From Butyrivibrio sp. AE3004 (GTDB lineage Bacteria; Bacillota; Clostridia; Lachnospirales; Lachnospiraceae), in assembly GCF_000703165.1 (NCBI RefSeq), contig NZ_JNLQ01000002.1, positions 930,001-994,000 of the forward strand: a stretch of 64,000 nucleotides of DNA, read 5' to 3'. Below the pieces are notes generated by a model, which saw only the letters and a list, made by a program, of their open reading frames with translations, ran no database searches and was not told the DNA's origin. Shown one piece after another: positions 2-36,455 of the stretch (position 1 is its first letter; the number at the start of each line of letters is the position of its first letter). Made by a program: the position numbers and the translations under genes.

Positions 2-3000
2 TCCACCTGTATAAGGGATGATGAACTGTATATCGGTACGGATAGCGGCTTACAGATAATAGACGCTAATGAGCAGATCGTGGAGAATGAACTGACAGAT
101 TACCTTAAAGGGACAAGAATCAGATGTATAGTCTGTGATGAAGATAATAATTTGTGGATATGTACTTATACCGATGATAAGGGACTTATCTATTACTCAA
201 AAGACAATATCATAAAATGCTATACAGAGGGTGTAGGCCTGTCAAGCAATGAAGTAAGATGCGCAGCGACGACAGATGACCGCTCGGTACTTGTGGGGAC
301 TAATGGGGGTGTCTCCGTAATAAAGGATGGCAGGGTAAAGAAGACCTATGGTGAAAATGAAGGACTTACAAATACTGTAATCCTTACCATTGAAGAGGGA
401 GATAATAATACTATTCTTGCCGGAACCGACGGTGGTGGCATTTTTGAAATAACAAGGAACGGAATAAACAGGATAAACCGGAAAAACGGTCTTACCAGTG
501 ATGTTGTCCTGAAAATAAAGTGGGATGAGAAACACGGTGTTTACTGGATTATTACATCAAATTCCATTCAGTATATGAAGGAAGGTAAAATTAAGAATGT
601 AGACACCTTCCCGTTTAATAATATTTGCGATGTCTATTCTGATGATAATGATATTTTGTGGGTACTTTCAGCTTATGGGGTATTTACTGTAAAAGTGCGG
701 GAAATGCTTGATAACAATGTTACCGATTACAGATTAAGTACGATAGAAAACGGTCTTACCAGTGTGCCTACGGACAATGCATACAGCACTTTGAGTGATT
801 CGGGAATACTGTATATTTCCGGAAGAAGCGGTGTATGCAGTGTTAATGTAAACAATTTTTTTGATCAGTCTTCACAAATAAAAATCGGAGTAAGATCCAT
901 AACAATAAATGGTGAAGAGATCATGCCTGATGCAAATGGGGATTATGTACTGCCTTCAAATCTGGGAAGAGTACAGATAAGTGCAGCAATACTTGATTAT
1001 TCCATGGCAAATCCCCTGGTTCACATGTATCTTGATGGTGCCGGAGACAGCGGTATTACTGCTACCCAGAACAAACTGTCTGCTCTTGAATATACAGGAC
1101 TTAAATACGGAAACTATAATCTTCACATACAGATAATCAGCCCTTCAAGCGGAGATATTTATCAGGAGAAGGTATTCAGGATAGTTAAAAAGCCTCATTT
1201 TGTGGAGCTTACGATTATCAGGATACTTTTGGCTGTTGCTCTTTCAATTATTGTCGGATTTATCGTGTGGAGAGTTATGACAGGGACTGTCATAAGAAGG
1301 CAGTATGAACAGATAAGGGCAGCCAGGGATGAGGCAGAGAGAGCTAATCTTGCAAAATCCAGATTTCTGGCCAATATTTCACATGAGATCAGAACACCTA
1401 TAAATACAATTATGGGAATGGATGAAATGATAATGAGAGAGGATCCGACTGATGTGCCAAAGCCATATTTTCTCTCAATGATAAATTATGCCACTGACAT
1501 AAGGAGTGCAACAGAATCACTTTTAAATCTGATAAACGATCTTCTTGATATATCAAAAATCGAATCCGGCAAAATGCACCTTGTGGAGACTGAATATGAT
1601 ACTATTGAATTAATAAGATCTATAGTTACGATGATACGGGTGCGTAGCGAGCAGAAGGACCTTACATTTGAGATCAATATAGATGAAAAACTGCCCAGAA
1701 AGCTTTATGGCGATTCCGGAAAGATCAAGCAGATAATACTTAATCTTTTGACAAATGCGGTTAAATATACTGATGAAGGTGGTTTTACACTAAAGGTGCT
1801 TGTGGCAGAGATGACGGAAGCCACCTGCAGTATAAAAATATCCGTTAAGGATACGGGTATAGGTGTAAAGGCTGAGGATGTAGATAAACTTTTTACAGCT
1901 TATGAAAGACTGGATGAAGAAAAGAACAAGGCTATTCAGGGAACCGGACTGGGACTTGATATATCCAGGCGTTTCGCAGAGCTTATGAATGGACAGCTTT
2001 GGTGCGAAAGCGTATATGGAAAAGGGTCTGAGTTCATTTTTACCCTGAACCAGAAGATTGTTGATCCTGAAGGAATAGGCAAGTTTATTGAACATGAGGA
2101 AAAGGCAATAAGCGGACCGTACATACCTCAGTTTATAGCTCCGGATGCGGAGATCCTTGTGGTTGACGACAATCCTATGAACCTGAATGTTATAAAAGGA
2201 CTTCTTAAGGCTACCAGGATGTTCGTAACTACTGCTTCAAGCGGAGAGGAATGCCTTGAAAAGATAAAGTACGGCAGCTTTAACCTGGTACTTCTTGATC
2301 ATATGATGCCCGGCATGGATGGTATTGAAACCCTTGAGCACATTAGGGAAACACATCCTGATCTTCCTGTATATGCTCTTACCGCGAATGCGGCAGCAGG
2401 CGGATCTGCTTTCTATAAATCCAAAGGGTTTGACGGATATCTGCCAAAGCCTGTGGACAGCGTAGAGCTTGAAAAAGCAATAATGAAGCATCTGCCTCCC
2501 GAGATAATGATGAAGCCTGAAGTTAATGAAGCCTATGTGGAAACTGAGGAATTCCCTGAAGATAAACGATGGCTTAATGATGTAGAAGGCATATCTTCTT
2601 TATTTGGAATAAAAAACTCCGGAGGAATTACTGCTTTTATTAATTCTATAACGCTATTTTATGATACGATAGATAGTAACGCAGAGGTTATTGAAAAAGC
2701 ATATAACAGTAATGATATAAGATTATTTACAGTGAAGGTACATGCGCTTAAGAGCTCCTGCAGAATTGTTGGTGCAATGGAGCTTTCCGCACTTGCGGAA
2801 AAACTTGAGAATGCAGGTAACAAAGGCGATATTGAGTTTATAAATGAAAATACATCTACGCTTCTGTCTGATTACAGAGCATATAAGGAAAAGCTTAAAG
2901 GACTTGGAGCTAATGAGACTGAAGATGATTCTTCAAAGGAGTTTATACCGGAAGATGAACTGATGGGGGCATACGAAGCGCTAAAAGAGCTTGTACCGCA

Positions 3001-3142
3001 GATGGACTATGACGGAGTTGAAATGGTACTTTATGAACTTAAGAACTATAAGCTTCCTGATGGAGATAAAGAGAAAATCGCTGAACTTGAGAAACTGCTT
3101 AAAACCTTTAGCTGGGATGAAATGGAAAAACTGCTTGGATAA
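2..3142 (+). CDS. Hybrid sensor histidine kinase with propeller sensor (5' partial)
   Basis: The reading frame is open to the window edge, so the start lies upstream; the GTG at 80 is internal, and residue numbers here count from it. Order: regulator-propeller repeats (about 1-265, recurring WI/VGT.GG elements), a Y_Y_Y-like beta domain (270-370), one membrane helix (377-398), a HisKA domain with phospho-acceptor His435 in NISHEIRTP, an HATPase domain with DTGIGV and GTGLGL boxes, a receiver with phospho-acceptor Asp740 in LLDHMMPGMDG, and an HPt domain with His888 in VHALKSS. This is a full four-step phosphorelay in one chain with an extracytoplasmic sensor; propeller kinases of this build often sense carbohydrates, but the ligand cannot be read here. 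A response regulator gene starts 9 nt after the stop and is a likely partner. Confidence 0.93.
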   Translation, partial: STCIRDDELYIGTDSGLQIIDANEQIVENELTDYLKGTRIRCIVCDEDNNLWICTYTDDKGLIYYSKDNIIKCYTEGVGLSSNEVRCAATTDDRSVLVGTNGGVSVIKDGRVKKTYGENEGLTNTVILTIEEGDNNTILAGTDGGGIFEITRNGINRINRKNGLTSDVVLKIKWDEKHGVYWIITSNSIQYMKEGKIKNVDTFPFNNICDVYSDDNDILWVLSAYGVFTVKVREMLDNNVTDYRLSTIENGLTSVPTDNAYSTLSDSGILYISGRSGVCSVNVNNFFDQSSQIKIGVRSITINGEEIMPDANGDYVLPSNLGRVQISAAILDYSMANPLVHMYLDGAGDSGITATQNKLSALEYTGLKYGNYNLHIQIISPSSGDIYQEKVFRIVKKPHFVELTIIRILLAVALSIIVGFIVWRVMTGTVIRRQYEQIRAARDEAERANLAKSRFLANISHEIRTPINTIMGMDEMIMREDPTDVPKPYFLSMINYATDIRSATESLLNLINDLLDISKIESGKMHLVETEYDTIELIRSIVTMIRVRSEQKDLTFEINIDEKLPRKLYGDSGKIKQIILNLLTNAVKYTDEGGFTLKVLVAEMTEATCSIKISVKDTGIGVKAEDVDKLFTAYERLDEEKNKAIQGTGLGLDISRRFAELMNGQLWCESVYGKGSEFIFTLNQKIVDPEGIGKFIEHEEKAISGPYIPQFIAPDAEILVVDDNPMNLNVIKGLLKATRMFVTTASSGEECLEKIKYGSFNLVLLDHMMPGMDGIETLEHIRETHPDLPVYALTANAAAGGSAFYKSKGFDGYLPKPVDSVELEKAIMKHLPPEIMMKPEVNEAYVETEEFPEDKRWLNDVEGISSLFGIKNSGGITAFINSITLFYDTIDSNAEVIEKAYNSNDIRLFTVKVHALKSSCRIVGAMELSALAEKLENAGNKGDIEFINENTSTLLSDYRAYKEKLKGLGANETEDDSSKEFIPEDELMGAYEALKELVPQMDYDGVEMVLYELKNYKLPDGDKEKIAELEKLLKTFSWDEMEKLLG

Positions 3143-3151
3143 GGAGTTATT

Positions 3152-3910
3152 ATGAAAAAAAACCGGATTATGGTTATTGGAGAGAAGGAGACTTTCCTCG
3201 TCAAAGTACTCATCCAGAAAATAAAGGATGCGGAAATGGACGGTATATTTAAAAAATGGGAAATCGACAGTATTAATGCGGGATGGGAAGGAAGCGACCT
3301 TATCGTTCCTTATATGACTGACGGAGACAGACCAAGCGAAGAAGTCCTCAGATTCCTTATTGATAAGCTGACTGATGACCATATGGAGATGATTCCCATC
3401 GGCGAGAAAAGTGATATTAAATATATCGAAGATCACGTTCCGGCAGACCTTGTTTATCGGAGCTTTACACGTCCTGTTGATAATGCGGAGTTTGTTCGGA
3501 CTGTAAACGAGCTGTTCAGTAAGGCTGCGATGGGCGAGTTTAAGAAGAGCATTCTTGTAGTGGACGATGATGCAAATTATCTCGGACTTGTCAGAGAATG
3601 GCTTCGTGAAACATATAAGGTATCAATGGCAACCTCAGGCATGCAGGCAATTAAGTGGCTTGGCAAAAACAAGGCTGATTTAATCCTGCTTGACCACGAG
3701 ATGCCTGTTACAACCGGTCCTCAGGTTCTTGAAATGCTTAGAAGTGATGAGGAAACAAAGAATATACCGGTAATGTTTCTTACAGGTAAAAGTGATAAGG
3801 AAAGCGTTATGTCGGTAGTTTCTCTTAAGCCCGAGGGTTATTTTCTTAAGACTATAGGGAGACAGGAACTTCTGGATAAGCTTCAGAATTTCTTTTTATT
3901 ACACAGATAA
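3152..3910 (+). CDS. Response regulator with C-terminal receiver domain
   Basis: 252 aa. The C-terminal half (about 132-252) is a normal receiver: acidic pair in VVDDDANY, phospho-acceptor Asp181 in LILLDHEMP, Thr/Lys switch region in FLTGKSD and the late Lys in YFLKT. The N-terminal 110 residues have a receiver-like length and end in TRPVDNAEFV, like the last helix of a receiver, but lack the acidic pocket, so they may be a degenerate receiver. There is no DNA-binding or enzymatic output domain, so it probably acts by protein contact or passes phosphate on. It follows the hybrid kinase by 9 nt with a good AAGGAG site and precedes the HD-GYP gene by 24 nt, which suggests one operon. Confidence 0.88.
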   Translation: MKKNRIMVIGEKETFLVKVLIQKIKDAEMDGIFKKWEIDSINAGWEGSDLIVPYMTDGDRPSEEVLRFLIDKLTDDHMEMIPIGEKSDIKYIEDHVPADLVYRSFTRPVDNAEFVRTVNELFSKAAMGEFKKSILVVDDDANYLGLVREWLRETYKVSMATSGMQAIKWLGKNKADLILLDHEMPVTTGPQVLEMLRSDEETKNIPVMFLTGKSDKESVMSVVSLKPEGYFLKTIGRQELLDKLQNFFLLHR

Positions 3911-3934: not shown

Positions 3935-6322
3935 ATGTTTGAATTATTGCGTGCATGTCAATTGGATATTATGCTGGTCCTCGCGGGGATTTGCGGGGTA
4001 ACAGCTGCATACACCATATTAGCAAAAAATATGACGCCAAGGAGAAAGGCTTGCATAGCATATCTTCAGTTATCCGGGATGATTCTGATGATCGCTGACA
4101 GACTGGCGTATATTTATCGCGGTGACGAATCAACACTTGGCTTCTGGATGGTCAGGATAACCAACTTTCTTGTGTACTTTATGTCATTCGCGATTCTGCA
4201 TGCCTTCAATCTCTACCTGTCTGATGTCCTTAGGGAAAAGGATTGTCTTGGCTTTGTGCCTTTTAGTTTAAGAATCGTTGAGATTATTATTTCCGTGGGT
4301 GAGCTATTTCTTGTAGTCTCACAGTTTACCGGCTGGCTTTATACCTTTGATGAAACCAATCATTATCATAGAGCGTCGGGACTTATGTTTTTTTACCTGT
4401 TCCCATTTGCTACAATGATAATCTTTTTATGTACGATAATAAAATATCACGGTAATCTTAGAAGGAGATTGCGGATAGGATTTCTGTTTTTTGCGACAGC
4501 TCCTATCATAGCTACTGCGGCTCAGATTTTTTTATACGGGCTTTCTCTCACAAATATCACGATAGTTGTGATCTCTATAATGATCTATACGTTTTCTCTT
4601 ATTGATCTCAATGACATGGCTGAACTTGCTTATAAAAAAGAAGTTGATTATCTTCGAAAAGAACGAAAGAGCATAAAAAACCTTTTTGATCAGACTGCAA
4701 TGGCTCTTGTAAGCGCTATTGATGCAAAAGATAAATATACTCACGGACATTCTTCAAGGGTTGCGGAATATGCAAGGAGAATTGCCGTGGAGTACGGCAT
4801 GAACGATAAGGAATGTGATGAAGTATATTACGCTGCGCTATTGCATGATGTAGGCAAAATCGGGGTTTCCGATGAGATAATCGAAAAGGCAAGTGGACTT
4901 ACAGATGAGGAATATGAGGAAATTCAGCAGCATGTATATATCGGGAGCGAAATACTTTCAAGTATTACCGAGTTCCCATATCTTAGTATCGGGGCAAAAT
5001 ATCACCATGAAAGATACGACGGAAAGGGCTATCCCGATAAGCTAAGAGGCGATGACATACCTGTGATAGCCAGGATAATTGCGGTTGCCGATGCCTATGA
5101 TGTGATGACCTCAAAGAGAAAGTACAGAGATGCAAGTCCGCAGGAAAAGGTCAGGGAAGAAATAATAAAGGGAACCGGTACACAGTTTGATCCCGTATTC
5201 GCCAAGATCATGCTTCATCTTATCGATATCGATGAAGAATACGAGATGCAGGAGAAGACGAATTTAAAAGAGCTTGCGGGAAGAAATGAGCTTCATCCTG
5301 TGGAATACAGAAGTGAAGTATCAGAAGGAATACTGATAAATCAATATACTACAAAAATTCATATGAAATGTGAGACAGAGGAAGATCTTGGTAATCAATT
5401 CAGCATGCCTGCACTTCTTTTGTTCGATTCACTTGATGGACGTATTTACAATGAAGCCAAAAAGATTGAAGAACTGAATTATTTTGAATTTGGTGAAATT
5501 TGGTTCGATGGTAACAAGGTCTGCAGCGGAGCCAGGGATATTCAGACTCAGATAAAGGTCTTGGAGAAGCAGGGGCCTGTTATAGAGAAAAAGAGTGTAA
5601 CAGAGTATGATGTTGAAGCGGTAAAAATCAAGGATCATGCCAAGATCACGATAAGCAGTAAATACAAGATTGTGGAGGCGATCATTGCACTTCCTAATGC
5701 TTCAAGGTTTATGTATATTTCCCTTACAGGAGAGCATTGTCATATAACCGATGTAGTTATAAGTAAGGCAGATGAGCCTATAGATGAAAATTATATCCCT
5801 CGAATTGCTGAGGAGATAAGCTATATCAACACGATAGTCGGTGATGTTCCCAACATACAGGTTGACGGCTATCATATGGCTATCACTGACGGTGTTCCAA
5901 TCAGGGATGGAATGAGAATTGACTTCCACGCCATGAGTCTTCCTACAGCCAGGCTTGTGTGGCATTGTCCGCATATTATATTTTTCTACTCCGATGATAA
6001 AAAGGTAAACGGGCCGAATTACAAAGAGTTTGCGCTTATAAGACTTGATGGTGAGTACTGGGAGTCAAACGGATCATCGGAAAATAAGATGGTTACAAAC
6101 ATCCTTGATGATTTTGAAAATTGGGATGTATGGAAGGAATTCAACAAGAAGGGCTATGACTGTGAGCTGAAATTTACCAGGTTTGGAAACAGGATCACCC
6201 TTACGACAGTAAATGGTGGAATTTCAATACGAAATGTCACAAACGTTTACGATAATCCCGAGGAGATTTATGTTGCGCTCACAGGCGATCAGGTAGCACT
6301 TACAGAGATAAGATATCTGTAA
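3935..6322 (+). CDS. Membrane HD-GYP domain protein (putative c-di-GMP phosphodiesterase)
   Basis: 795 aa. About seven hydrophobic helices fill residues 8-225. An HD-GYP domain follows (about 250-420), with His270, the HD pair at 304-305 in LLHDVGKIG, tandem His357-His358 and DGKGYP near 362-366. These are the metal-binding and GYP signature residues, so c-di-GMP (or related dinucleotide) hydrolysis is plausible. Residues 455-795 match no family I recognise; they hold two similar segments ending in YISLTGEHCHITD and YVALTGDQVALTE, which suggests a duplicated beta-sandwich module. Start ATG has a GGGGAG site. The gene ends the first operon, with a strong terminator just after it. Confidence 0.88.
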   Translation: MFELLRACQLDIMLVLAGICGVTAAYTILAKNMTPRRKACIAYLQLSGMILMIADRLAYIYRGDESTLGFWMVRITNFLVYFMSFAILHAFNLYLSDVLREKDCLGFVPFSLRIVEIIISVGELFLVVSQFTGWLYTFDETNHYHRASGLMFFYLFPFATMIIFLCTIIKYHGNLRRRLRIGFLFFATAPIIATAAQIFLYGLSLTNITIVVISIMIYTFSLIDLNDMAELAYKKEVDYLRKERKSIKNLFDQTAMALVSAIDAKDKYTHGHSSRVAEYARRIAVEYGMNDKECDEVYYAALLHDVGKIGVSDEIIEKASGLTDEEYEEIQQHVYIGSEILSSITEFPYLSIGAKYHHERYDGKGYPDKLRGDDIPVIARIIAVADAYDVMTSKRKYRDASPQEKVREEIIKGTGTQFDPVFAKIMLHLIDIDEEYEMQEKTNLKELAGRNELHPVEYRSEVSEGILINQYTTKIHMKCETEEDLGNQFSMPALLLFDSLDGRIYNEAKKIEELNYFEFGEIWFDGNKVCSGARDIQTQIKVLEKQGPVIEKKSVTEYDVEAVKIKDHAKITISSKYKIVEAIIALPNASRFMYISLTGEHCHITDVVISKADEPIDENYIPRIAEEISYINTIVGDVPNIQVDGYHMAITDGVPIRDGMRIDFHAMSLPTARLVWHCPHIIFFYSDDKKVNGPNYKEFALIRLDGEYWESNGSSENKMVTNILDDFENWDVWKEFNKKGYDCELKFTRFGNRITLTTVNGGISIRNVTNVYDNPEEIYVALTGDQVALTEIRYL

Positions 6323-6344: not shown

Positions 6345-6381
6345 GGCAAAGATGGCCTTCATGCCATCTTTGCCCTTTTTT
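6345..6381 (+). terminator. Rho-independent terminator after the HD-GYP gene
   Basis: A perfect 12-bp stem (GGCAAAGATGGC, 6345-6356, with GCCATCTTTGCC, 6363-6374) with a 6-nt loop is followed by a T run. It separates the first signalling operon from the second. Confidence 0.92.
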
Positions 6382-6548: not shown

Positions 6549-8609
6549 GTGGGAGATAAAAACGATCTTGTTACCAAAAAACATAATGCCGTTATCATAA
6601 TCATAACCACCGCCAGCATGGGTGTATTATTGGAAAGCATCCTGCAGGGATGGGAATTTTGGATGCCTCCGCTTATATTTTTGGGAATCATTATCTGCTG
6701 GGGTATTCATGTAAGAAACCATCTGGAAATGCGCCTTAGGGAAAAAATCTATATATCCTTTTCCATGCTGGTAGCTTTCTATCATGGCGCACATGCGACC
6801 GGGTTCTATGATGCTGTCATTTTCTCTATGCTGCTTATGGTGACTACAGCAATGCTTAAGAGGGAAGAATTTCTGATATTCATTATGGGGGAATTCTTTG
6901 CAATTATGCTTATGCAGATAATTTATGCTGTGGGTACCAATGCTATCGAGTTTAATTCTATTGTTATTTCAAGATTGGTTTTTCAGGGATTATTGGAAAT
7001 ATGCTGCTACAGAGCTCTTAAGACTATACTGAAAAGTGAACGCGTTGTTGAAGATGAGCTTGAAAGCAAATACAGCAATGAGGAGACAGACAGTATCGGA
7101 CTTGAAGACTTTCTTGTCAACATTTCTCATGAACTTAGAACACCTGTAAATGTAATAAACGGTATGACCACCCTCATCCTGAAAAAAGAAAGAAGCGATG
7201 ATGTTATCGCCATCAGGAATGCGGGAGTACGCCTTTCACAGCAGATAGAGGATATTCAGGACTACAGTGAGATACAAAGAGGAGATGCAAGGTTAGAGGA
7301 GGACAGATATGAAATTTCTTCTGTGCTGAATGATATAGTAGCAAATTATAATATTTTCGCTAAGAACGACAAGATTGAATTTGTTATCGATTTGGATCCG
7401 AATTTGCCCGCATGTCTTCGGGGAGATTCTGTAAAAATTCGTAAGATAATGGATCATCTTCTGGACAATGCCTTCAAGTTTACAAGTGAGGGCGGAGTCT
7501 ATCTGAAAATTTCAGGAATAAAAAAAGACTATGGCATAAATCTTACAATTGAAGTATCTGATACCGGCATAGGTATGACTGAAAGTGATATTGAAAGAAT
7601 AACCAGAGGACGATATCAGGTAAATAAGAGGCGAAACAGAAGCACAGGCGGCATAGGCCTTGGACTTTCCATTGTATTTGGTTTTGCACGCCTTATGAAA
7701 GGATTTGTAAGTATTGAGAGTGAGAGACGTAAGGGGACATGCGTACGTGTCAGCATAGCTCAGGAAATAATCGATCATTCACCGTGTATGAGTGTTGCTG
7801 ACAAGAGATTTATCAATATAGCATTCTATTTTATCCCGAACAAGTACAAATATTCAGCTGTTAATGAATACTACAAGGCACTTGGCTCGAACTTTGCTGC
7901 CGGACTACGTCTTAATCTTTATGGTGTTCCCAGCCTGACTGAGTTGAAACGATATATAGATAGGGGAAAGATTACTCATGTGTTTATAGGAATTGAAGAA
8001 TATGACCTTGATCCTGAGTACTTTGAGACAATAGCGCAGGGCAATATCACAGTGGCTGTATCAAGTCGCTATGATTTTCTGCGTCCAAGGAATAGCGGTA
8101 TTATCCGTATAGCAAAGCCTGCAAGTGGGTATCAGATGCTAAGAGTGTTAAACGGAGATATTTATCCAGCCAATATCCTGCCTGAAGAAGGAAGGCCGGT
8201 GCTTGACGGACTTCGTGCCCTCATCGTTGATGATGAACCTATGAACCTTGTTGTGGCCAGCGGACTTTTTAAGGAATACAAAATGAATATTGAGGTCGCA
8301 AACAGCGGAGCAGAAGCTATTGCCAAGTACTCACAGTCATTTTATGACATCATATTTATGGACCATATGATGCCTGAAATGGATGGTATTGAAGCTATGA
8401 AAGAGCTGAGGAAGATTGCTGCACAGAACAACAGGAGTGTTTGCGTTATTGCCCTTACGGCAAATGCCATAAGCGGTGCAAGGGAAATGTTCCTGAAGGA
8501 AGGCTTTGATGGCTTTATAAGTAAACCTATTAATCTAAATGCGTTTGAGAGAGTCATGAACCGCATTTTGAGAAATGGCAATATCCGTGGCAGAGGAGGT
8601 GCAATATGA
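6549..8609 (+). CDS. Hybrid histidine kinase with receiver, membrane-bound
   Basis: 686 aa, GTG start chosen because GGAG at 6537-6540 is spaced 8 nt from it. Residues 10-155 hold several membrane helices with only short loops, so sensing is probably within the membrane or from inside. HisKA has His194 in NISHELRTP; HATPase has the DNAFKFT N box, DTGIGM and GIGLGL. Residues about 425-530 look like a receiver fold without a phospho-acceptor Asp, and a normal receiver follows (Asp605 in IIFMDHMMPEMDG, TANA, late Lys in ISKPI). There is no HPt domain, so a separate HPt protein would be needed to pass phosphate on. Its stop codon overlaps the next start by 4 nt (ATGA), implying coupled translation. 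Confidence 0.91.
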   Translation: MGDKNDLVTKKHNAVIIIITTASMGVLLESILQGWEFWMPPLIFLGIIICWGIHVRNHLEMRLREKIYISFSMLVAFYHGAHATGFYDAVIFSMLLMVTTAMLKREEFLIFIMGEFFAIMLMQIIYAVGTNAIEFNSIVISRLVFQGLLEICCYRALKTILKSERVVEDELESKYSNEETDSIGLEDFLVNISHELRTPVNVINGMTTLILKKERSDDVIAIRNAGVRLSQQIEDIQDYSEIQRGDARLEEDRYEISSVLNDIVANYNIFAKNDKIEFVIDLDPNLPACLRGDSVKIRKIMDHLLDNAFKFTSEGGVYLKISGIKKDYGINLTIEVSDTGIGMTESDIERITRGRYQVNKRRNRSTGGIGLGLSIVFGFARLMKGFVSIESERRKGTCVRVSIAQEIIDHSPCMSVADKRFINIAFYFIPNKYKYSAVNEYYKALGSNFAAGLRLNLYGVPSLTELKRYIDRGKITHVFIGIEEYDLDPEYFETIAQGNITVAVSSRYDFLRPRNSGIIRIAKPASGYQMLRVLNGDIYPANILPEEGRPVLDGLRALIVDDEPMNLVVASGLFKEYKMNIEVANSGAEAIAKYSQSFYDIIFMDHMMPEMDGIEAMKELRKIAAQNNRSVCVIALTANAISGAREMFLKEGFDGFISKPINLNAFERVMNRILRNGNIRGRGGAI

Positions 8610-11600
8610 AATTTGGCTTCCTAAACCGGCTGATTCATATGATCAAGGACCCTAAGCGCAGCTTCAGAGAGCGTGTTTTTTTGCTGCTGACATCTGTAAC
8701 GGATTTCTTTATCATATTGGGACTGATAGGCGATATATTTTTTGATGAGAATATTGTTGAGACAATAACTGTAGCTATTATCGCGGCAATTGTTCCGGTA
8801 ATTACATATATTGCAGTAAAACTGAATAAAGTAAAGTATGCTATAAGGTTCATTGTGCTTGGAATTGTTTTCATACTTCTGCCTATATTGTTTTATTTTG
8901 GCGGAGGCTTAAGAGGCGGAGGTGTATTGTGGATAATCTTCGCATATCTTTATACAGGACTTGTGTTAAGTGGTAAATGGAGACCTCTGATGCTTATAGT
9001 TCTCACTATAGAGACCTGTATTTTTTACCTGAATGGTTTTTTCAGGCCTGAACTGGTAAGCAAGCATCAGGAGAGTATGTTTTACATTGATTCCCTTATT
9101 TCTATGATACTTGTGGGATTTATTTGCTGTGTCATGGCGTGGTTTGAAGAATGGCTTCTCATGGAGGAAAATAAAAGAGCCCGTGAGGAGACAAAGAAGG
9201 TAGAGGAACTTAACCTGGCACAAAACAGATTTTTCTCAAATATGAGTCATGAGATAAGGACACCGATAAACTCTATTCTTGGGTTAAATGAGATTATTCT
9301 GAGGCAGGAGGATGCCTCTGAGGAGATAATAAAGGATGCTGAGAATATTCAGGGTGCGGGCAGGATGCTTCTTGCGCTCGTAAATGACATTCTGGATTTC
9401 TCCAAAATAGAAGCAGGCAAGATGGATATAGTTTCTGTGAACTATAACCTGGAAAAGATGCTGTCTGAAATTGTAAATATGATATGGATGCGTGCTGAAG
9501 AAAAGGGACTTGAACTTAAGGTTGAGGTCGACCCGTCAATTCCGGCAGAGCTTTTTGGCGATGAGATGCGCATCAAACAGATACTAATAAATCTTTTGAA
9601 CAATGCGGTTAAATACACAAATGAGGGAACCGTAACATTATCGGTAGAGAAGGAGGACATAAGGGATAAGCAGATACTTCTTTTGTTCTCTGTGACTGAT
9701 ACGGGAATGGGTATCAAACAGGATGCTATTCCGTATCTTTTTGATGCTTTCCGGAGAATAGATGAGGAAAAAAACAGTAAGATAGAAGGCACTGGACTTG
9801 GACTTGCAATAGTTAAACAGCTTGTTGAGCTTATGGGAGGAAGAATAACAGTAAACAGCGTTTATACTCAGGGATCCACATTTATGATGGCCCTGTGGCA
9901 GCAGGTGACCAGAAAAGATGTTATTGGTGAAATCAATCTTGTAAAATCCGGAAACAAGCGTGAAACGGACAAATATGTTCCATGCTTTACGGCTTCGGAA
10001 GCAGCAATACTTATAGTTGATGATAATGAGATGAACCTTGAGGTTGAAAAAAAGCTGCTTGCTGATACAGAAATCACTATACATACAGCGAGCAGTGGAC
10101 AGGAAGCGCTGTCTATGACGCTCAATTATCGTTATGACCTTATTTTTATGGACCATCTTATGCCGGAGATGGATGGAATTGAATGCTTTCAGAATATAAG
10201 GAATCAGGAGGGTGGTCTTAATAATACAGTTCCTGTAATTGTGCTTACAGCTAACGCAGACAGCGAAAACAGAGAGCTATACGACCGCAGTGGCTTCGAT
10301 GACTATCTGGTAAAACCTGTCACCGGAAGACAGCTTGAAGACATGCTTCTAAGCCATTTGCCTGAAATCAAGATAAACAGGACGGAAGGATTTGGCGGTA
10401 CTACGGCTCAGATGAATACCGCAAACGGTTACAGCAAAAAACTTCCTATTGCTATATGCACCAGCAGTATGTGTGATCTTCCTGCCAAAGTGTTAGACGA
10501 AAAAAATATAGACATAATACCTTTTACGATCACAACGGAAGGTAAAACATATTATGACCGTCAGGAGGTTAGTACAGATGACCTTATTCACTATATGCGT
10601 GAAGGTATGGAATTTAATTCTGCACCTCCAACCGTCGAGGAATTTGAGAACTTTTTCGGTCGTATAATGAAAAAAGCTCATCAGATAATTTACCTTACGC
10701 TTGCTCCGGGATTTAGTAAAGAGTATGAGAATGCTAAAGCTGCAGCTAGGGCATATGAGAATGTGATTGTTTTTAATTCGGGATATAATTCATGCGCTTT
10801 GGGACTACTGGTCCTTTTGGCTTACAGGAGATCCATGCAGGGAAGAACTCTCGACAAGATTCTGGAAGAACTGAAGAGAGCAAGAGAAAATATCAGATGC
10901 AGTTTTATTACAACAGATGCCGGTTTTATGATGAAACGTGGAATTATCGGCAGAAATATATATGGCATCATGAGTACATTTTCCTTAAAGCCTGTTATGC
11001 GCATCATAGACAACAGGGTTACTGTCTGGCGTCTGTTTATGGGAGAAAGACAGGATTGCTACGGAAAGTATATTGACCATGCTCTGAACAGGTTTGAGAA
11101 TCCTGATACGGATTTGTTGTTTGTGGAATATATAGATATCACAGAGTCAGAGAGGAAAGCTATTGAAGAGAGAATAAGGAAACGGGTCAATTTTAAAAAT
11201 ATTATATTTAAGAAAGTCTGTGCGGCAATGACCCTCAACTGTGGTTTTGGAGCTATCGGTTTGTCTTTCATTGGTAAGGGAGACATACCCTACGACCTTA
11301 GCATGATGCTGGAAGAGAAGAAAAAGCCAGATGTAATCGAAGACTCTTTTGCCAATATGAAATTACAGGATGGCTCAGAAGAAAACGCGGACAATGCTGC
11401 TGAAGATAATGCGGAAGATAAAACTGAAGATACAATTGAAGACAAAAATGAATACAGAAGTAACAGATTATATAACGATCCCATATTAAAGCCTGATGAA
11501 AAGCAAAGCGGAATAAATTATAAGAAAGCTCTTGATTATGCAGGCTCTGAAGAGACCATGCTTGCAATGATGCAGCTTTTTTCTAAAACAATTGACCGTA

Positions 11601-11842
11601 ATGCAATGGAAATTGAAAACTGCTACAAGGATGAGGACTGGGAAAAGTATGTGACAAAAGTATCCAATCTAAAGAATTCAGCAAGAATTATTGGCGCAGA
11701 TGAATTGGCAAAGTCAGCCCTCAGGTTGGAAAATGCCGCAAAAGCCGGAGACATTGATTTTATAAGACAGAACACGGATAGGCTTATTGCCGATTACAGA
11801 TATTACCATGAAGTCATAAATAAGTTTGTGAAGGAATACTAA
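8606..11842 (+). CDS. Hybrid histidine kinase fused to a DegV domain and a His-less HPt domain
   Basis: 1078 aa. Order: about six membrane helices (25-185), a coiled-coil linker, HisKA with His215 in NMSHEIRTP, HATPase with DTGMGI and GTGLGL, a receiver with Asp516 in LIFMDHLMPEMDG, a DegV-type domain (about 613-892), an acidic linker (about 905-950, D/E/N-rich) and an HPt-like domain (about 960-1078). The DegV part keeps the family landmarks: TSSMCDLP (the DSTSDLP strand), SAPPTVEEF, LAPGFSKEYENA, FNSGYNSCALG and KRGIIGRN...LKP. DegV proteins bind fatty acids and, in some bacteria, present them to fatty-acid kinase. The HPt part matches that of the first kinase closely but has Ser1020 where His should be. 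Coupled to the genes on both sides. Confidence 0.9.
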   Translation: MKFGFLNRLIHMIKDPKRSFRERVFLLLTSVTDFFIILGLIGDIFFDENIVETITVAIIAAIVPVITYIAVKLNKVKYAIRFIVLGIVFILLPILFYFGGGLRGGGVLWIIFAYLYTGLVLSGKWRPLMLIVLTIETCIFYLNGFFRPELVSKHQESMFYIDSLISMILVGFICCVMAWFEEWLLMEENKRAREETKKVEELNLAQNRFFSNMSHEIRTPINSILGLNEIILRQEDASEEIIKDAENIQGAGRMLLALVNDILDFSKIEAGKMDIVSVNYNLEKMLSEIVNMIWMRAEEKGLELKVEVDPSIPAELFGDEMRIKQILINLLNNAVKYTNEGTVTLSVEKEDIRDKQILLLFSVTDTGMGIKQDAIPYLFDAFRRIDEEKNSKIEGTGLGLAIVKQLVELMGGRITVNSVYTQGSTFMMALWQQVTRKDVIGEINLVKSGNKRETDKYVPCFTASEAAILIVDDNEMNLEVEKKLLADTEITIHTASSGQEALSMTLNYRYDLIFMDHLMPEMDGIECFQNIRNQEGGLNNTVPVIVLTANADSENRELYDRSGFDDYLVKPVTGRQLEDMLLSHLPEIKINRTEGFGGTTAQMNTANGYSKKLPIAICTSSMCDLPAKVLDEKNIDIIPFTITTEGKTYYDRQEVSTDDLIHYMREGMEFNSAPPTVEEFENFFGRIMKKAHQIIYLTLAPGFSKEYENAKAAARAYENVIVFNSGYNSCALGLLVLLAYRRSMQGRTLDKILEELKRARENIRCSFITTDAGFMMKRGIIGRNIYGIMSTFSLKPVMRIIDNRVTVWRLFMGERQDCYGKYIDHALNRFENPDTDLLFVEYIDITESERKAIEERIRKRVNFKNIIFKKVCAAMTLNCGFGAIGLSFIGKGDIPYDLSMMLEEKKKPDVIEDSFANMKLQDGSEENADNAAEDNAEDKTEDTIEDKNEYRSNRLYNDPILKPDEKQSGINYKKALDYAGSEETMLAMMQLFSKTIDRNAMEIENCYKDEDWEKYVTKVSNLKNSARIIGADELAKSALRLENAAKAGDIDFIRQNTDRLIADYRYYHEVINKFVKEY

Positions 11843-13968
11843 TGAAAAAAAAGACGAGCGTCATAAAAGGAATATATGCTTTATTATTCGGAAATCTATT
11901 GGTAATGATTTTTTTTGTTATACCTCTTAGGACCGATTTGTTTAAATCCGGATTTACAGAGCAGCCGGACAGTTTTTCGGAAAATTGGGCTGTAGGAGAA
12001 GAAAACATTCCGAGAATTGAGGAAGTTCTTGCAGGTAATTATAACGGCCGGGTCAGACTTGAAAAAAATTTACCGAATAAGCTGACTGAAATGGATTCAC
12101 TTTGCTTTGAATCACAGAACACAAATGTTGAGGTCCTTATAAATGATAAGGAGGCATACAGCTTCAAAACCAGGCCGAATCTTACGGGTACCGGCACGGG
12201 AATCGTATTTCATGAAGTGGGAATCGGAACCTTAAATGCCGGAAAAAAGGTAACCATAGTAAGCAGCTGCTGCTATGAAGGCCAAAAGACAGGCAGAATA
12301 TTAAATGTGTATATATGTCCGTCATCAGATTATATGCGTCTGACATTTCAGAGAATGATGGTTCCCAGTTTGTATTGTGCACTAATGATACTTTTTGGAA
12401 TTATCCTGATATTGATATATTGTGCAGTTTCAAATAAGGATGCTCTGCCCTTTAATATATTGGCGCTTGGAGTAACATCCCTTATAGCCGGGACATGGCT
12501 TTTTATAGATACCAATATCATGCAGCTTTTGACGGGGGCAATATATGCGTGGCGTGACATGAACAAGGTTTTGCCTTTTCTTGTGGGGTATCCGCTCATA
12601 ACTTTCTTTAATTCACTTACGGTCAAAAAAAATGATGTATTCCAACATATCGGTTTCTGGATGTCAGCAGTTTTTGAATTTGGAATAATCGCAGCAAGAT
12701 ATATTCTTAATCTTGATATGTGCTACTCATTTTCGCTGTTTCTGATACCGTATTTGGTAATTATTATGATAATCTTGTTGATTATCGCTGTTAATAATGC
12801 CAATTATTGCAGACGTAACGGGTTGGAAGTTGAAATGAGAAATACATACCTTGTTATCGGTATTGTGTTGGTTTGCGGCCTGATAGATCTGGTAAGAGAT
12901 TTCACCAGTATGACACTGACAGATGTACAGGGAAAATATACCATGTTTGGAATGGTTATATTTGTCATATACATGATGATCAGATTTCTTAAATGGTGGA
13001 CCAAGGATCATGCGCAGATTCAGAGGGAACGCTTTATTAATCATGCTCTTCAGTATGCCCTCTCTTCCGATTCGCCGGAATATAATATCAAGGCTTTGCT
13101 GGATTTTATGGGGAAAGAGCTTGAGGCTGAAAGAATTTTCATCTTTGAGGATCAGAAAAACGGTAAATATCGTGGCTCTTATGAATGGAGTAGTGATGGT
13201 TTAACGGCTGAAGATATAGAGCTTGTATATTTACCCTATGAGGGTGTGCTGGATAAGCTCTATGAGAAGTATATAAGTAATGGTAGAAGGTTTATTATTA
13301 ATAATATAGAACAATTAAAAACATCCAATCCGTATTTTTATGATCTTATGAAAAACTACGGAGGTGAGAATATTGTAATAGGTGCTCTTGAGATAAACGG
13401 CAAGCTTACGGGAATATGCGGTGTAATGGATGCTCCCCGTGTGAAACTGATAGATATTTCAGAGATTATCAATCTGATATCATATTTCCTCTCACAGTTG
13501 ATTTTACAGCGAGAAGAGCAAAAGAGGCTGTTCTACTATAACTATAATGATGTCCTTTCCGGTGCAAGAAACCATATGGCATACAGGAAATTTATGGAAA
13601 ACGGACTGGACATGGCAGGAACCTTTGGATATATGCGGGTTGACATAAAGGGACTTGAAGAAATAAATAAGGAACAAGGCTACGATGCCGGAGATAAGAT
13701 AGTTATAGAGGTTGCCAGGAGCCTTATGGAAATTTTTGGAGAAGAAAATGTTTATCGTCTGAACGGAAATGAATTTGTGTGCTTTGGCTTTGAAACGGAA
13801 GAACCATATTTTGATAATGATGTTGAATGCGCAAGACGTATGATTGAAAAGAAAGGTGTCACTATGTTTACAGGTTCTGTTTACTGCGCTAACGGAACTT
13901 CAGATATGGAGATTGTTTTAAACCGTGTGGATGAACTTTTGGAAGAAGATATGAAAAAATCCGGCTAG
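11842..13968 (+). CDS. Membrane protein with GAF-like and degenerate GGDEF domains
   Basis: 708 aa. It has an N-terminal helix, an extracytoplasmic beta-rich part (about 30-165), about seven membrane helices (170-385), a GAF-like region (about 400-555), and a C-terminal GGDEF-type domain (about 560-700). The active-site signature GGDEF reads NGNEF in YRLNGNEFVCF, and the upstream substrate loop is also weak, so diguanylate cyclase activity is unlikely; such domains can bind GTP or partner proteins. The build resembles 7TM-DISM diguanylate cyclases. Its ATG shares one base with the previous stop (TAATG), so it is translated together with the DegV-kinase fusion. Confidence 0.84.
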   Translation: MKKKTSVIKGIYALLFGNLLVMIFFVIPLRTDLFKSGFTEQPDSFSENWAVGEENIPRIEEVLAGNYNGRVRLEKNLPNKLTEMDSLCFESQNTNVEVLINDKEAYSFKTRPNLTGTGTGIVFHEVGIGTLNAGKKVTIVSSCCYEGQKTGRILNVYICPSSDYMRLTFQRMMVPSLYCALMILFGIILILIYCAVSNKDALPFNILALGVTSLIAGTWLFIDTNIMQLLTGAIYAWRDMNKVLPFLVGYPLITFFNSLTVKKNDVFQHIGFWMSAVFEFGIIAARYILNLDMCYSFSLFLIPYLVIIMIILLIIAVNNANYCRRNGLEVEMRNTYLVIGIVLVCGLIDLVRDFTSMTLTDVQGKYTMFGMVIFVIYMMIRFLKWWTKDHAQIQRERFINHALQYALSSDSPEYNIKALLDFMGKELEAERIFIFEDQKNGKYRGSYEWSSDGLTAEDIELVYLPYEGVLDKLYEKYISNGRRFIINNIEQLKTSNPYFYDLMKNYGGENIVIGALEINGKLTGICGVMDAPRVKLIDISEIINLISYFLSQLILQREEQKRLFYYNYNDVLSGARNHMAYRKFMENGLDMAGTFGYMRVDIKGLEEINKEQGYDAGDKIVIEVARSLMEIFGEENVYRLNGNEFVCFGFETEEPYFDNDVECARRMIEKKGVTMFTGSVYCANGTSDMEIVLNRVDELLEEDMKKSG

Positions 13969-14099: not shown

Positions 14100-14378
14100 C
14101 GATGAAGCGGAGATAACGGCAGTGATGCCTTCACAGAGAGTCCGGGGTGGTGAGAGCCGGGTAAGAAACAAATTGTCAAATGGACCGCTGAGGGTGTGGG
14201 CGATAAATGGAACAGTAATTTCATTAGGTAGTCTGCAACGTAGGGCATACGTCAGTTGCCGGGGATATGTTGGTATCCTGATAAGCGCGTAGCTTTAGCT
14301 ATGAATTCAAGGTGGCACCGCGGATAGTTTAGATTATTCGTCCTTGACAGAAAAAATATTTCTGTCAGGGACTTTTTT
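14100..14378 (+). promoter_or_regulatory. T-box leader, tryptophan-specific
   Basis: The T-box sequence AAGGTGGCACCGCGG is at 14309-14323. Stem I closes with AGCGG (14106-14110) and CCGCT (14185-14189), and the specifier position directly before that helix reads TGG (14181-14183), the Trp codon, followed by A as usual. The conserved AGAGAG/CCGG/GTGAGAG parts of stem I are also present. Two exclusive helices are visible: the antiterminator pairs TCAAGG (14307-14312) with CCTTGA (14342-14347), and the terminator uses that same 3' strand. Uncharged tRNA-Trp should stabilise the antiterminator and switch on trpDCFBAEG. Confidence 0.95.
14340..14378 (+). terminator. T-box regulated terminator
   Basis: GTCCTTGACAGAAA (14340-14353) pairs with TTTCTGTCAGGGAC (14359-14372) and is followed by six T. 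Its 5' strand is shared with the antiterminator, so this is the off state of the leader. Confidence 0.93.
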
Positions 14379-21251: not shown

Positions 21252-22295
21252 ATGTCTAAAATTGAAGAAAGCAGTTTAAAGAAGATTTTTTGGATGCTGT
21301 TCTCATTATTGCTTGCGGCATTTACTGTGTGGGCAATACTGAGGGAGAGTAAAACGCTCTCAATTTCACAGCTTTTTAAAGTTGTTATAGGTGGAAATCC
21401 GTTATATCTTGCTATCGCGGTTATCTGTGCTGCGGGTTATGTGTTTTTTGAAGCGGTTGCCATATGCTCAATATTAAAAGGAATAAACTATAAGAAAAAA
21501 ATACATGAGGGCATTATTTACAGTACAGCCGATGTTTATTTTTCTGCAATTACGCCCTCAGCAACAGGCGGTCAGCCGGCAAGCGCGTATTTTATGCATG
21601 AAGACGGGATACCTACGGGAGTGGTTTCAGCGACACTTATACTGAATCTGATGATGTATACCTGTGCGATTGGATTTCTGGGAATTATATCAATAATTAT
21701 GAATCCTGATTTTTTCAGAGAATTCGGAAGCGTGGCCAGAATATTCATATGTGTGGGATTTGTAATACTTATAGCTCTTACATATTTCTTTTATTTATTG
21801 CTTAAGAAGAGCAAAAGCGTGTTTGATTTTATCAGGAAGGTGCTGACCTTCTTGAAAAGTAAGAATATATTTAAAGTAAAAGATCAGGTGTTTTCGAAGC
21901 TGGATAAAACACAGGCAGACTATGAAAACTGCGCGAAGATGTTTGCCGGAAAAAGTAGAATTTTAAGTAAGGCGTTTATATTTAACGTTCTTCAGAGGGC
22001 ATCGCAGATAGCGGTTCCCATGTTTATGTATCTGTGCCTTGGAGGAAATAAAAGCAATATGATAACGCTTTTTTCCAAGCAAAGCCTTGTTACCATCGGC
22101 TATAACTTTATTCCGATTCCTGGAGCAATGGGAATTTCGGATTTTCTGATGATAGACGGATTTTCAAAGATAATGACGCATGAGGCTGCGATGCAGCTTG
22201 ATATGGTCAGTCGTGCTATATCATTTTATTTTTGCGTTACGATAAGCGGTCTGATAACACTTGGAGGATATTTATGGAAAAAGAAAAAAAGATGA
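21252..22295 (+). CDS. Flippase-like membrane protein (LPG synthase TM-region family, UPF0104)
   Basis: 347 aa with about eight membrane helices. Segments such as TPSATGGQPASAY and IPIPGAMGISDFLM are typical of the family that shares the flippase half of MprF. Members without the synthase half are thought to move lipids or lipid-linked molecules across the membrane; the substrate here is not known. It overlaps the next gene by 22 nt, which ties it to phospholipid synthesis and makes a phospholipid-related role likely. Confidence 0.85.
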   Translation: MSKIEESSLKKIFWMLFSLLLAAFTVWAILRESKTLSISQLFKVVIGGNPLYLAIAVICAAGYVFFEAVAICSILKGINYKKKIHEGIIYSTADVYFSAITPSATGGQPASAYFMHEDGIPTGVVSATLILNLMMYTCAIGFLGIISIIMNPDFFREFGSVARIFICVGFVILIALTYFFYLLLKKSKSVFDFIRKVLTFLKSKNIFKVKDQVFSKLDKTQADYENCAKMFAGKSRILSKAFIFNVLQRASQIAVPMFMYLCLGGNKSNMITLFSKQSLVTIGYNFIPIPGAMGISDFLMIDGFSKIMTHEAAMQLDMVSRAISFYFCVTISGLITLGGYLWKKKKR

Positions 22296-22987
22296 TAGGT
22301 GTATATGACTATACGGTTATTCTCACATATCTTTCTACTATTTCAGGTGCTATAGGCATAATTATTACGATGTCAGGTCTCGGACATCCTTACGGCGGCG
22401 CTGTTTTTCTTATGATCTCGGGGCTGCTGGATGCATTTGACGGCACGGTCGCAAGGACCAAAAAGAACAGAACGGAATTTGAAAAAGAATTCGGTGCACA
22501 GATAGATTCACTCTCCGATCTTATATGCTTCGGAGTACTTCCCGTATCCATGGGAATAGCCCAGCTTAGAGTAAACGGAGCATTCAGGGATGTGGTAAGA
22601 GGAAGCGCAAATACTGCAAATGTATGGATGGTTGTGATCCTCTTATCCATTGCGGCATTCTATATTCTTACAGCTCTGGTCAGACTTGCTTATTTTAATT
22701 CAACAGCATCTGAGAGAGCCGCTCAGAAGGAAAGGGAGGGAAGAGAATATTTCACAGGTCTTCCCGTTACCGCAGCTGCAATTATTTTTCCTTTGACACT
22801 TATTGTGCATTATTTTACAAGAGCAGATCTTACATTTTTCTATTTTTGGGTGCTGCTCATTATAGGCACACTTTTTATAGGTAATTTTAAGATACCAAAG
22901 CCCGGTATGAAATTTCTTATCTGTATTACCATAATCGGCGCTGTGGAATTTGCGACATTGATTTTTATACTTGTGACGAATATATGA
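22274..22987 (+). CDS. pssA: CDP-diacylglycerol-serine O-phosphatidyltransferase
   Basis: Membrane enzyme of the CDP-alcohol phosphatidyltransferase family, about 237 aa. The signature DG..AR(8)G...D...D is present in full: DGTVAR then FGAQIDSLSD. The family alone does not fix the alcohol, but the next gene is phosphatidylserine decarboxylase, which makes serine the likely substrate. The ATG at 22274 has GGAGG spaced 6 nt; earlier in-frame starts lie deep in the upstream gene. Its stop overlaps the psd start by 4 nt. Confidence 0.9.
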   Translation: MEKEKKMIGVYDYTVILTYLSTISGAIGIIITMSGLGHPYGGAVFLMISGLLDAFDGTVARTKKNRTEFEKEFGAQIDSLSDLICFGVLPVSMGIAQLRVNGAFRDVVRGSANTANVWMVVILLSIAAFYILTALVRLAYFNSTASERAAQKEREGREYFTGLPVTAAAIIFPLTLIVHYFTRADLTFFYFWVLLIIGTLFIGNFKIPKPGMKFLICITIIGAVEFATLIFILVTNI

Positions 22988-23799
22988 ATACACTTGAATT
23001 TTTATATAAAACGAAAATCGGAAGAGTAATCCTGAAACCCATGACACTAAAGCCTTTGTCGGATCTGTCCGGAATAATTTTGGATTCATCTTTGTCAAAG
23101 CTGCTGATAGGTCCCTTTGCCGTAAAAAACAGGATACGGACTGAGGACTACATACTTGATGATATTCACTCCTTTAATGATTTTTTCTGCAGGAGAATAA
23201 AGAAGGGGTTAAGGCCTATAAGCCCTGATGAAAAGGCGGTTATAGCCCCCTGCGACGGACTGCTTAAGGTTTACCGGATAACGGATGGTCTTATAATAAA
23301 TGCCAAGCAGAGCACCTTCACGATAAGAAGTCTTTTAAGGGATAAGAAACTGGCTGCAGGCTTTGACGGAGGCTACTGCTTTGTTTACAGATTATGTGTT
23401 GATCATTATCACAGATATATTTATTTCTCCGGAGGTCATAAGCACGCTGACAGAAAAATCAAAGGCTTTTATCACACCGTAAGACCTGTTGCGCTTTCCG
23501 AAATACCTGTATTTACGGAAAACAGCAGGCAATATTCCATAATTGACACAAATGGTCTTGGCACCTGCGTACAGATGGAAGTCGGTGCCATGCTGGTTGG
23601 AAGGATTGTAAATGATAAGCCTTTGGCAGGCAAAGTAATTAAGGGACAGGAAAAAGGACATTTTGAGTATGGTGGCTCTACAATAATCGTCTTGATTCCA
23701 AAGGACAAAATTAAGGTTAAGCCTTATCTTTTGGAAAAAACGAGAAGAGGGATGGAGACTTCCGTGAAAATGGGAGAAGCTGTAGCAGAAAGGATATAA
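22984..23799 (+). CDS. psd: Phosphatidylserine decarboxylase
   Basis: Pyruvoyl enzyme that makes phosphatidylethanolamine. 271 aa. The self-cleavage site reads GGST in FEYGGSTIIVL, where Ser becomes the pyruvoyl group; the CDGLLK, VDHYHRYIYFSGG and MEVGAMLVGRI segments are typical. The length and the N-terminus FFCRRIKKGLRPI match the PSD-B/II group found in clostridia. Coupled to pssA by an ATGA overlap, so the pair should give PE in this cell. Confidence 0.94.
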   Translation: MNTLEFLYKTKIGRVILKPMTLKPLSDLSGIILDSSLSKLLIGPFAVKNRIRTEDYILDDIHSFNDFFCRRIKKGLRPISPDEKAVIAPCDGLLKVYRITDGLIINAKQSTFTIRSLLRDKKLAAGFDGGYCFVYRLCVDHYHRYIYFSGGHKHADRKIKGFYHTVRPVALSEIPVFTENSRQYSIIDTNGLGTCVQMEVGAMLVGRIVNDKPLAGKVIKGQEKGHFEYGGSTIIVLIPKDKIKVKPYLLEKTRRGMETSVKMGEAVAERI

Positions 23800-36424: not shown

Positions 36425-36455
36425 AGAAAAAACCTGCTGATAATATCAGCAGGTT
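36425..36455 (-). terminator. Terminator of the DegV gene
   Basis: AACCTGCTGATA and its complement (36431-36455) form a hairpin followed on the minus strand by a T run. The stop codon of the DegV gene lies inside the hairpin. Confidence 0.88.

Follow-up and report, generated by a model that had tools for sequence, protein, structure and literature searches.

A DegV domain within a hybrid histidine kinase

In this report, we describe a hybrid histidine kinase of Butyrivibrio sp. AE3004 that carries a complete DegV domain. Its gene, here called B, lies in the window analysed, a 64,000-nucleotide stretch of contig NZ_JNLQ01000002.1 (positions 930,001 to 994,000, forward strand); unprefixed coordinates refer to the window. 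Gene B is a single open frame with an ATG start and zero internal stops in the window's list of open reading frames. According to Pfam and a hydropathy scan, its product comprises, in order, a multi-helix hydrophobic membrane region, HisKA, HATPase_c, a receiver, a full DegV domain and a tail resembling a histidine-phosphotransfer (Hpt) domain. The features expected of a hybrid histidine kinase are present, namely the HisKA His, the HATPase_c N box and the receiver Asp. The initial annotation had reported a complete DegV domain in one unbroken kinase frame, and this is borne out here. It also placed that domain between the receiver and an Hpt-like domain; the order is correct, but the tail has no phospho-accepting His. 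The partner kinase directly upstream, gene A, was not part of that annotation. The features of the pair are as follows.

6549–8609, + strand: gene A, partner hybrid kinase (686 aa), directly upstream of B
8606–11842, + strand: gene B, DegV hybrid kinase (1078 aa), overlapping A by four bases (ATGA)
8669–9163, + strand: membrane region of B (aa 22–186; hydropathy scan)
9218–9418, + strand: HisKA of B (aa 205–271), phospho-acceptor His215 (Pfam, alignment)
9557–9895, + strand: HATPase_c of B (aa 318–430; Pfam)
10007–10348, + strand: receiver of B (Response_reg, aa 468–581), Asp516 (Pfam, alignment)
10448–11272, + strand: DegV domain of B (aa 615–889; Pfam, NCBIfam, alignment with relatives of solved structure)
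10619–10621, + strand: Ser672, at the position of FakB1 Thr62 (carboxylate contact), hydroxyl retained (alignment)
10715–10717, + strand: Ser704, at the position of FakB1 Ser95 (carboxylate contact), retained (alignment)
10943–10945, + strand: Ile780, at the position of FakB1 Arg173 (needed for FakA phosphorylation), Arg lost (alignment)
11039–11041, + strand: Met812, at the position of FakB1 Arg205 (FakA and membrane docking), Arg lost (alignment)
11237–11239, + strand: Asn878, at the position of FakB1 His270; Asn is the commonest residue here in the kinase-linked clade (alignment)
11567–11764, + strand: degenerate Hpt-like domain of B (aa 988–1053), with Ser1020 in place of the phospho-accepting His (Pfam, alignment)

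The DegV domain of B matches its family over the full profile and above the curated cut-offs of both libraries used: PF02645 with E 2.5e-37 and 129 bits (cut-off 27; profile positions 2–278 of 280), and NCBIfam TIGR00762 over residues 615–888 with 151 bits (cut-off 99.7). Its solved relatives, as found by sequence, are MW1315 (4x9x, E 5e-19) and FakB1 (7scl, E 9e-12), both stand-alone DegV or FakB proteins, and it aligns with FakB1 residues 2–283 (chain 22–303). The genome encodes three further DegV kinases elsewhere, and the N-terminal 108 or so residues of B have own-genome matches confined to these four kinases.

Distribution of the fusion

One example with the same domain order is L058 of Butyrivibrio sp. 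LC3010 (L-numbers are locus labels of this analysis), a protein of 1082 aa whose DegV part is 71% identical to that of the window. Because the fusion is conserved in such relatives, chance or a frame error is a very unlikely source of it. We considered a frameshift or an assembly artefact as its origin, and rejected both on the ground that relatives share the domain order.

The initial annotation had staked the fusion on same-order homologues in related genomes and had suggested looking for kinase, receiver and DegV domains in one protein. A search among proteins of about 590–1890 aa sharing the DegV part returned 39, of which 38 have HATPase_c, receiver and DegV; the named organisms among them are Butyrivibrio or Lachnospiraceae. 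A DegV query from class II (defined below) matched 884 protein clusters, and all 120 of those listed have the same three domains. Kinase domains were checked in the individually read loci and, for these two cluster searches, in precomputed domains.

Genome samples were also searched, that of the genus with an alignment of the DegV domains from the window genome's own four DegV kinases. Frames of 700 aa or more that contain DegV occur in at least 48 of the 79 genus genomes and at least 68 of the 397 family genomes; both figures are hand counts among the matches listed and are lower bounds. Within the genus sample, 114 of the first 119 DegV matches listed fall in such frames, and two rows of the list have a stop within the match. 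A class-wide sample of 391 genomes yielded three more genomes, all from one other family. Forty-three named loci were collected by similarity to the fused DegV; a fused B is present in 42, and in the remaining one (L099) DegV stands alone, a ratio that is not a frequency because of how the loci were gathered. They are mainly from Lachnospiraceae, and three come from metagenome genomes labelled Oscillospiraceae. Homologues with this order thus recur widely, so that the refutation proposed in the initial annotation fails. From these comparisons we conclude that the fusion in the window is real and that its family is large.

Other arrangements accompany the fused one. The four split loci L122–L125, each in a different genome, have no B in view; an A-like kinase is directly followed there by a stand-alone DegV gene of 283–302 aa. 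At L121, B and DegV are encoded by two separate frames. A protein of 1578 aa (L137:1811-6544, - strand) has an N-terminal DegV followed by dCache, HisKA, HATPase_c, receiver and Hpt. L138 combines HATPase_c with DegV, HisKA and receiver not being detected, and L140 is similar but incomplete. A protein search with the excised domain for the nearest stand-alone DegV found none among 857 candidates at E 1e-20.

No description of a DegV–histidine kinase fusion was found in the open-licence literature searched. What that literature offered on DegV fusions and kinases concerns DegV genes adjoining hemolysin III genes.

The two-kinase pair and the phosphotransfer domain

Gene A encodes a membrane region, HisKA (186–245), HATPase_c (292–404) and a receiver (558–666) with Asp605. 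Its conserved middle segment (about 416–550) has no Pfam match, and we read it as a pseudo-receiver. The segment has a weak match in three of the split loci and none in L124.

We examined 43 A–B pairs, drawn from the named loci and the genome's own four; three named loci have no complete A in view. The four-base overlap of A and B is present in 34 of the 43. By BLAST, every pair has an Hpt domain on exactly one partner, on B in 30 (class I, to which the window belongs) and on A in 13 (class II). None of the 46 B and 43 A proteins examined lacks the kinase His, the N-box Asn or the receiver Asp, and the A and B distances correlate at 0.93, a value uncorrected for shared ancestry. Pairing was also counted in 11 genomes hand-picked from the 79, with an A-type kinase taken as a match over the middle segment plus the receiver and with positions compared by eye. 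In the eight with fused DegV, 22 A-type kinases match 22 DegV kinases one to one, about 2.6–3.0 kb apart; the three genomes lacking fused DegV have no A-type kinase.

The Hpt match of the window's B is faint (E 2.5e-4; 21.6 bits, under the curated 24.6), and the phospho-accepting Hpt His of a tripartite kinase–receiver–Hpt protein is missing from this copy. Thus, a relay through B's own Hpt is not supported: some other Hpt would have to pass the phosphate on, or this copy would act as a phosphate sink or modulator. The window also encodes, at 80–3142, a large kinase in which two-component propeller repeats are combined with an Hpt whose His is retained. Next to it lies a receiver protein (3152–3910), homologues of which occur near many of the named DegV-kinase loci.

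Residues at the FakB1 ligand-site and docking positions

In Staphylococcus aureus FakB1, the fatty-acid carboxylate is held by Thr62, Ser95, Ser171 and His270; Arg173 is required for phosphorylation by FakA, and Arg205 for docking to FakA and the membrane (PMC8892158, PMC9136124). We transferred this numbering by eye from the alignment, using the residue numbers of PMC8892158. In the window's domain, the hydroxyls at positions 62 and 95 are present and both arginines are absent.

One set of 139 DegV domains came down to 121 after removal of identical ones, with two kept out of the classes. In the tally of the FakB1 positions, L005 was dropped as the identical twin of the window's stand-alone DegV, and L128, whose frame starts within a receiver at a contig end, was counted as fused instead of stand-alone. 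Among the 42 stand-alone rows, many of which are mutually orthologous and hence not independent, Thr or Ser at 62, Ser at 95 and Arg at 173 are universal, Arg205 is present in 41, and position 270 is His (24) or Tyr (18). Class I retains Thr or Ser at 62 and Ser at 95 (91/92 each), keeps Arg173 in 10 of 92 and Arg205 in two, and has Asn at 270 in 81. The split loci have both hydroxyls in 5/5, Arg173 in 2/5, Arg205 in 0/5 and Asn270 in 5/5. In a first class II set of 21 rows, the counts are 11 for Thr or Ser at 62, 8 for Ser95, 13 for Arg173, 0 for Arg205 and 14 for Asn270. The 120 listed of the 884 class II relatives have Ser62 in 119, Ser95 in 116, Arg173 in 119, Arg205 in none and Asn270 in 116. 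The steady change in the kinase-linked domains is, in these alignments, the loss of the FakA-docking Arg205, mostly accompanied by Asn270.

A tree of 103 DegV domains, made by a quick method with SH-aLRT support only, separates 60 kinase-linked from 43 stand-alone rows by one branch (SH-aLRT 99); L128 still counts as stand-alone there, though its frame starts inside the receiver. The kinase-linked side includes four stand-alone DegV genes sited directly after an A-like kinase, and class I forms one clade (SH-aLRT 100). Seven class II loci of Butyrivibrio (L009, L088, L089, L091, L093, L095 and L096) lack both the Hpt His of the A kinase and the DegV hydroxyl at 62 in 7/7, and the cassette of all seven adjoins the same conserved neighbour genes.

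Genomic context and c-di-GMP

The genes around the pair are these.

3935–6322, + strand: HD-GYP protein (795 aa), upstream of the 6345–6374 hairpin (Pfam)
6345–6374, + strand: intrinsic-terminator-like hairpin of 12 pairs, upstream of A (pattern match)
11842–13968, + strand: membrane protein with a degenerate GGDEF domain (NGNEF), the next gene after B (open reading frame, Pfam)
14340–14372, + strand: intrinsic-terminator-like hairpin of 14 pairs, downstream of the GGDEF gene (pattern match)

The two hairpins enclose A, B and the membrane GGDEF protein; the pattern used finds 12 sites in the region where shuffles give 6.9. The GGDEF protein has homologues in the vicinity of nine of the 42 named loci with a fused B. 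The canonical GG(D/E)EF motif occurs in none of ten homologues, the window's included, the nearest forms being SGEEF (L060) and GGGEF (L068, L069), and the window protein is likely to be without diguanylate cyclase activity. That the upstream HD-GYP protein belongs to the A–B unit is doubtful, because a hairpin intervenes and HD-GYP matches also flank another large kinase of the genome (C2:2269898-2276039), with no DegV among the matches listed.

Across the family, genes for GGDEF, EAL or HD-GYP proteins (E 1e-4; the seeds came partly from the same loci, L082, L085 and L092) are found within the flanks of 21 of 42 loci. The density in the window's own genome predicts 3.9, a figure that counts GGDEF and HD_5 but not EAL and assumes independent loci, although some, such as L068 and L069, are near-copies of each other. 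Receiver-linked examples are REC-GGDEF by split loci L122 and L123, REC-GGDEF-EAL at L082, and REC-HD-GYP at L085 and L092. For part of the family, these gene neighbourhoods make an output through cyclic di-GMP (c-di-GMP) likely.

Proposed function and alternatives

The best reading of these observations is that a lipid carrier has been reused as a lipid-sensing input, with fatty-acid binding as its central prediction. We lean towards B being a membrane hybrid kinase that has a ligand-binding DegV domain after its receiver, works with A and receives a lipid signal. This fits because class I and the 120 class II relatives keep the carboxylate-site serines and lose the FakA-docking Arg. Further, FakB1(R173A) exchanges fatty acid normally yet is inactive with FakA (PMC9136124), so the loss of Arg173 leaves binding possible. 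The DegV domain would take up a fatty acid or a similar long-chain carboxylate, and its bound form would alter the kinase, phosphatase or phosphotransfer activity of the A–B complex. Phosphate would then pass from the receivers to the pair's single Hpt and on to a response regulator that, in part of the family, would make or break c-di-GMP. In the window, it might exit through another Hpt, such as that of the kinase at 80–3142, or this copy might be a sink or modulator. Of the lipid-sensing phosphorelay proposed in the initial annotation, the lipid input is thus retained as a prediction, and the relay through B's own Hpt is given up.

Several observations weigh against this reading. At the window itself, the Hpt domain has Ser1020 where 32 other aligned class I proteins have the phospho-accepting His, the GGDEF motif of the following gene is degenerate, and the domain departs from the FakB carboxylate network in its missing Arg173 and its Asn in place of His270. 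The genome's four cassettes show a c-di-GMP gene in view at only one. Median identity of class I to the window is 42% in DegV vs 87% in HisKA and 71% in the receiver. Class II is less uniform in its hydroxyls: the first set keeps them in about half of its rows or fewer, and the Butyrivibrio group lacks that at 62 throughout and Ser95 in 6/7. The branch of L092 and L133–L135 has Ala or Glu at 95 and Gln at 173, and L090, L098 and L128 have Gly at 95. The Hpt His is missing from 7 of 13 class II A kinases, all seven of the Butyrivibrio group, and present in the other six. Position 205 is Arg in two class I rows and Lys in one.

A somewhat unlikely alternative is that the DegV domain holds no lipid and serves in protein docking or dimerisation. 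The DegV-related C-terminal domain of FakA (FakA_C) is a precedent, as it binds FakB and holds no fatty acid (PMC9136124). The missing site hydroxyls of several class II branches would suit such a role, as would the split loci, where DegV is encoded separately from, yet adjoining, an A-like kinase. However, the tunnel-forming segments that FakA_C lacks seem to be present here, to judge from the nearly complete profile match and the FakB1 alignment, and docking alone leaves the near-invariant site serines of class I and the 120 class II relatives unexplained.

Another possibility, unlikely in itself and a sub-case of the lipid-input reading, is that the ligand is some other long-chain or amphipathic carboxylate, such as an acyl phosphate or a fatty acid that is hydroxylated or conjugated, and that Asn270 recognises its altered head group. 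The change from His or Tyr at 270 in all stand-alone rows to Asn in most kinase-linked ones favours this; both hydroxyl contacts are nevertheless unchanged in most. It is very improbable that the DegV domain is instead an output, through which the receiver would govern the supply of fatty acid or acyl phosphate for lipid synthesis, since this accords with a place after the receiver, generally a frequent one for output domains, but not with the near-absence of Arg205 from all kinase-linked classes, the scarcity of Arg173 in class I or the N-terminal DegV of L137.

The lipid-input reading can be extended from the window to the family, if more tentatively. It may be that gut and rumen Lachnospiraceae possess a class of two-kinase receptors, each made of A, B and a FakA-uncoupled DegV lipid receptor with one Hpt, that connects fatty acids to c-di-GMP.

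Comparison with known systems

Like FakB, the domain in B is a full-length DegV match with the hydroxyls of the Thr62 and Ser95 positions; unlike FakB, it sits inside a histidine kinase. Kinase-linked DegV domains are not expected to serve FakA, because Arg205 is lost, Arg173 is mostly lost in class I and His270 has become Asn. The nearest functional parallel would be RpfC–RpfG, the Xanthomonas sensor system for diffusible signal factor. RpfC likewise has several membrane helices, a histidine kinase, a receiver and an Hpt, and is linked to c-di-GMP through an HD-GYP regulator (PMC5391125); at L085 and L092, both class II, a receiver–HD-GYP gene lies just upstream. RpfC binds fatty acid through a 22-residue N-terminal periplasmic segment (PMC5391125), whereas in the present family a separate DegV domain is the candidate site and the kinases are paired. 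FakA_C is also a DegV-like domain within a multidomain kinase protein, but lacks the tunnel-forming insertions and binds FakB rather than fatty acid (PMC9136124), and FakA is no histidine kinase. The top NCBIfam matches of B are the hybrid kinases BarA and TorS, which cover the kinase part and, for TorS, also the receiver, with scores far under the curated cut-offs (BarA, 326 vs 890 bits) and with DegV as an addition in B. BarA and TorS are not known to have a DegV domain.

To our knowledge, few bacterial fatty-acid receptors are known at the biochemical level. The family bears on the perception of long-chain fatty acids by gut and rumen bacteria, and its many genomes (884 clusters matched) are a source of candidate receptor domains that are soluble, can be expressed and come with predictions at residue level. 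Unsaturated fatty acids harm Butyrivibrio fibrisolvens, which biohydrogenates them (PMC2836310). If the lipid-input reading is true, the family shows a metabolic carrier that became a signalling domain, of which unfused, fused and rearranged versions coexist.

Other DegV and lipid genes

The initial annotation had cited a separate DegV protein (36446–37282) and lipid genes (21252–23799) in support of lipid sensing. We considered both as partners of B and rejected them: the terminator-like hairpin at 14340–14372 and trp-type genes (two by Pfam, the rest by eye) lie between them and the B cassette, and the second DegV occupies a long, separate branch of the tree. The lipid genes are phospholipid genes, encoding an LPG-synthase-like membrane protein, a CDP-alcohol phosphatidyltransferase and a phosphatidylserine decarboxylase. 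Elsewhere, the genome has a FakA-like gene (C2:1516903), which counts in favour of the lipid-input reading, and one broken DegV copy (L012, C2:3629281-3630117). This copy lies by a contig end and looks like a decayed gene: its match is interrupted by several stops, and no neighbouring kinase was recognised.
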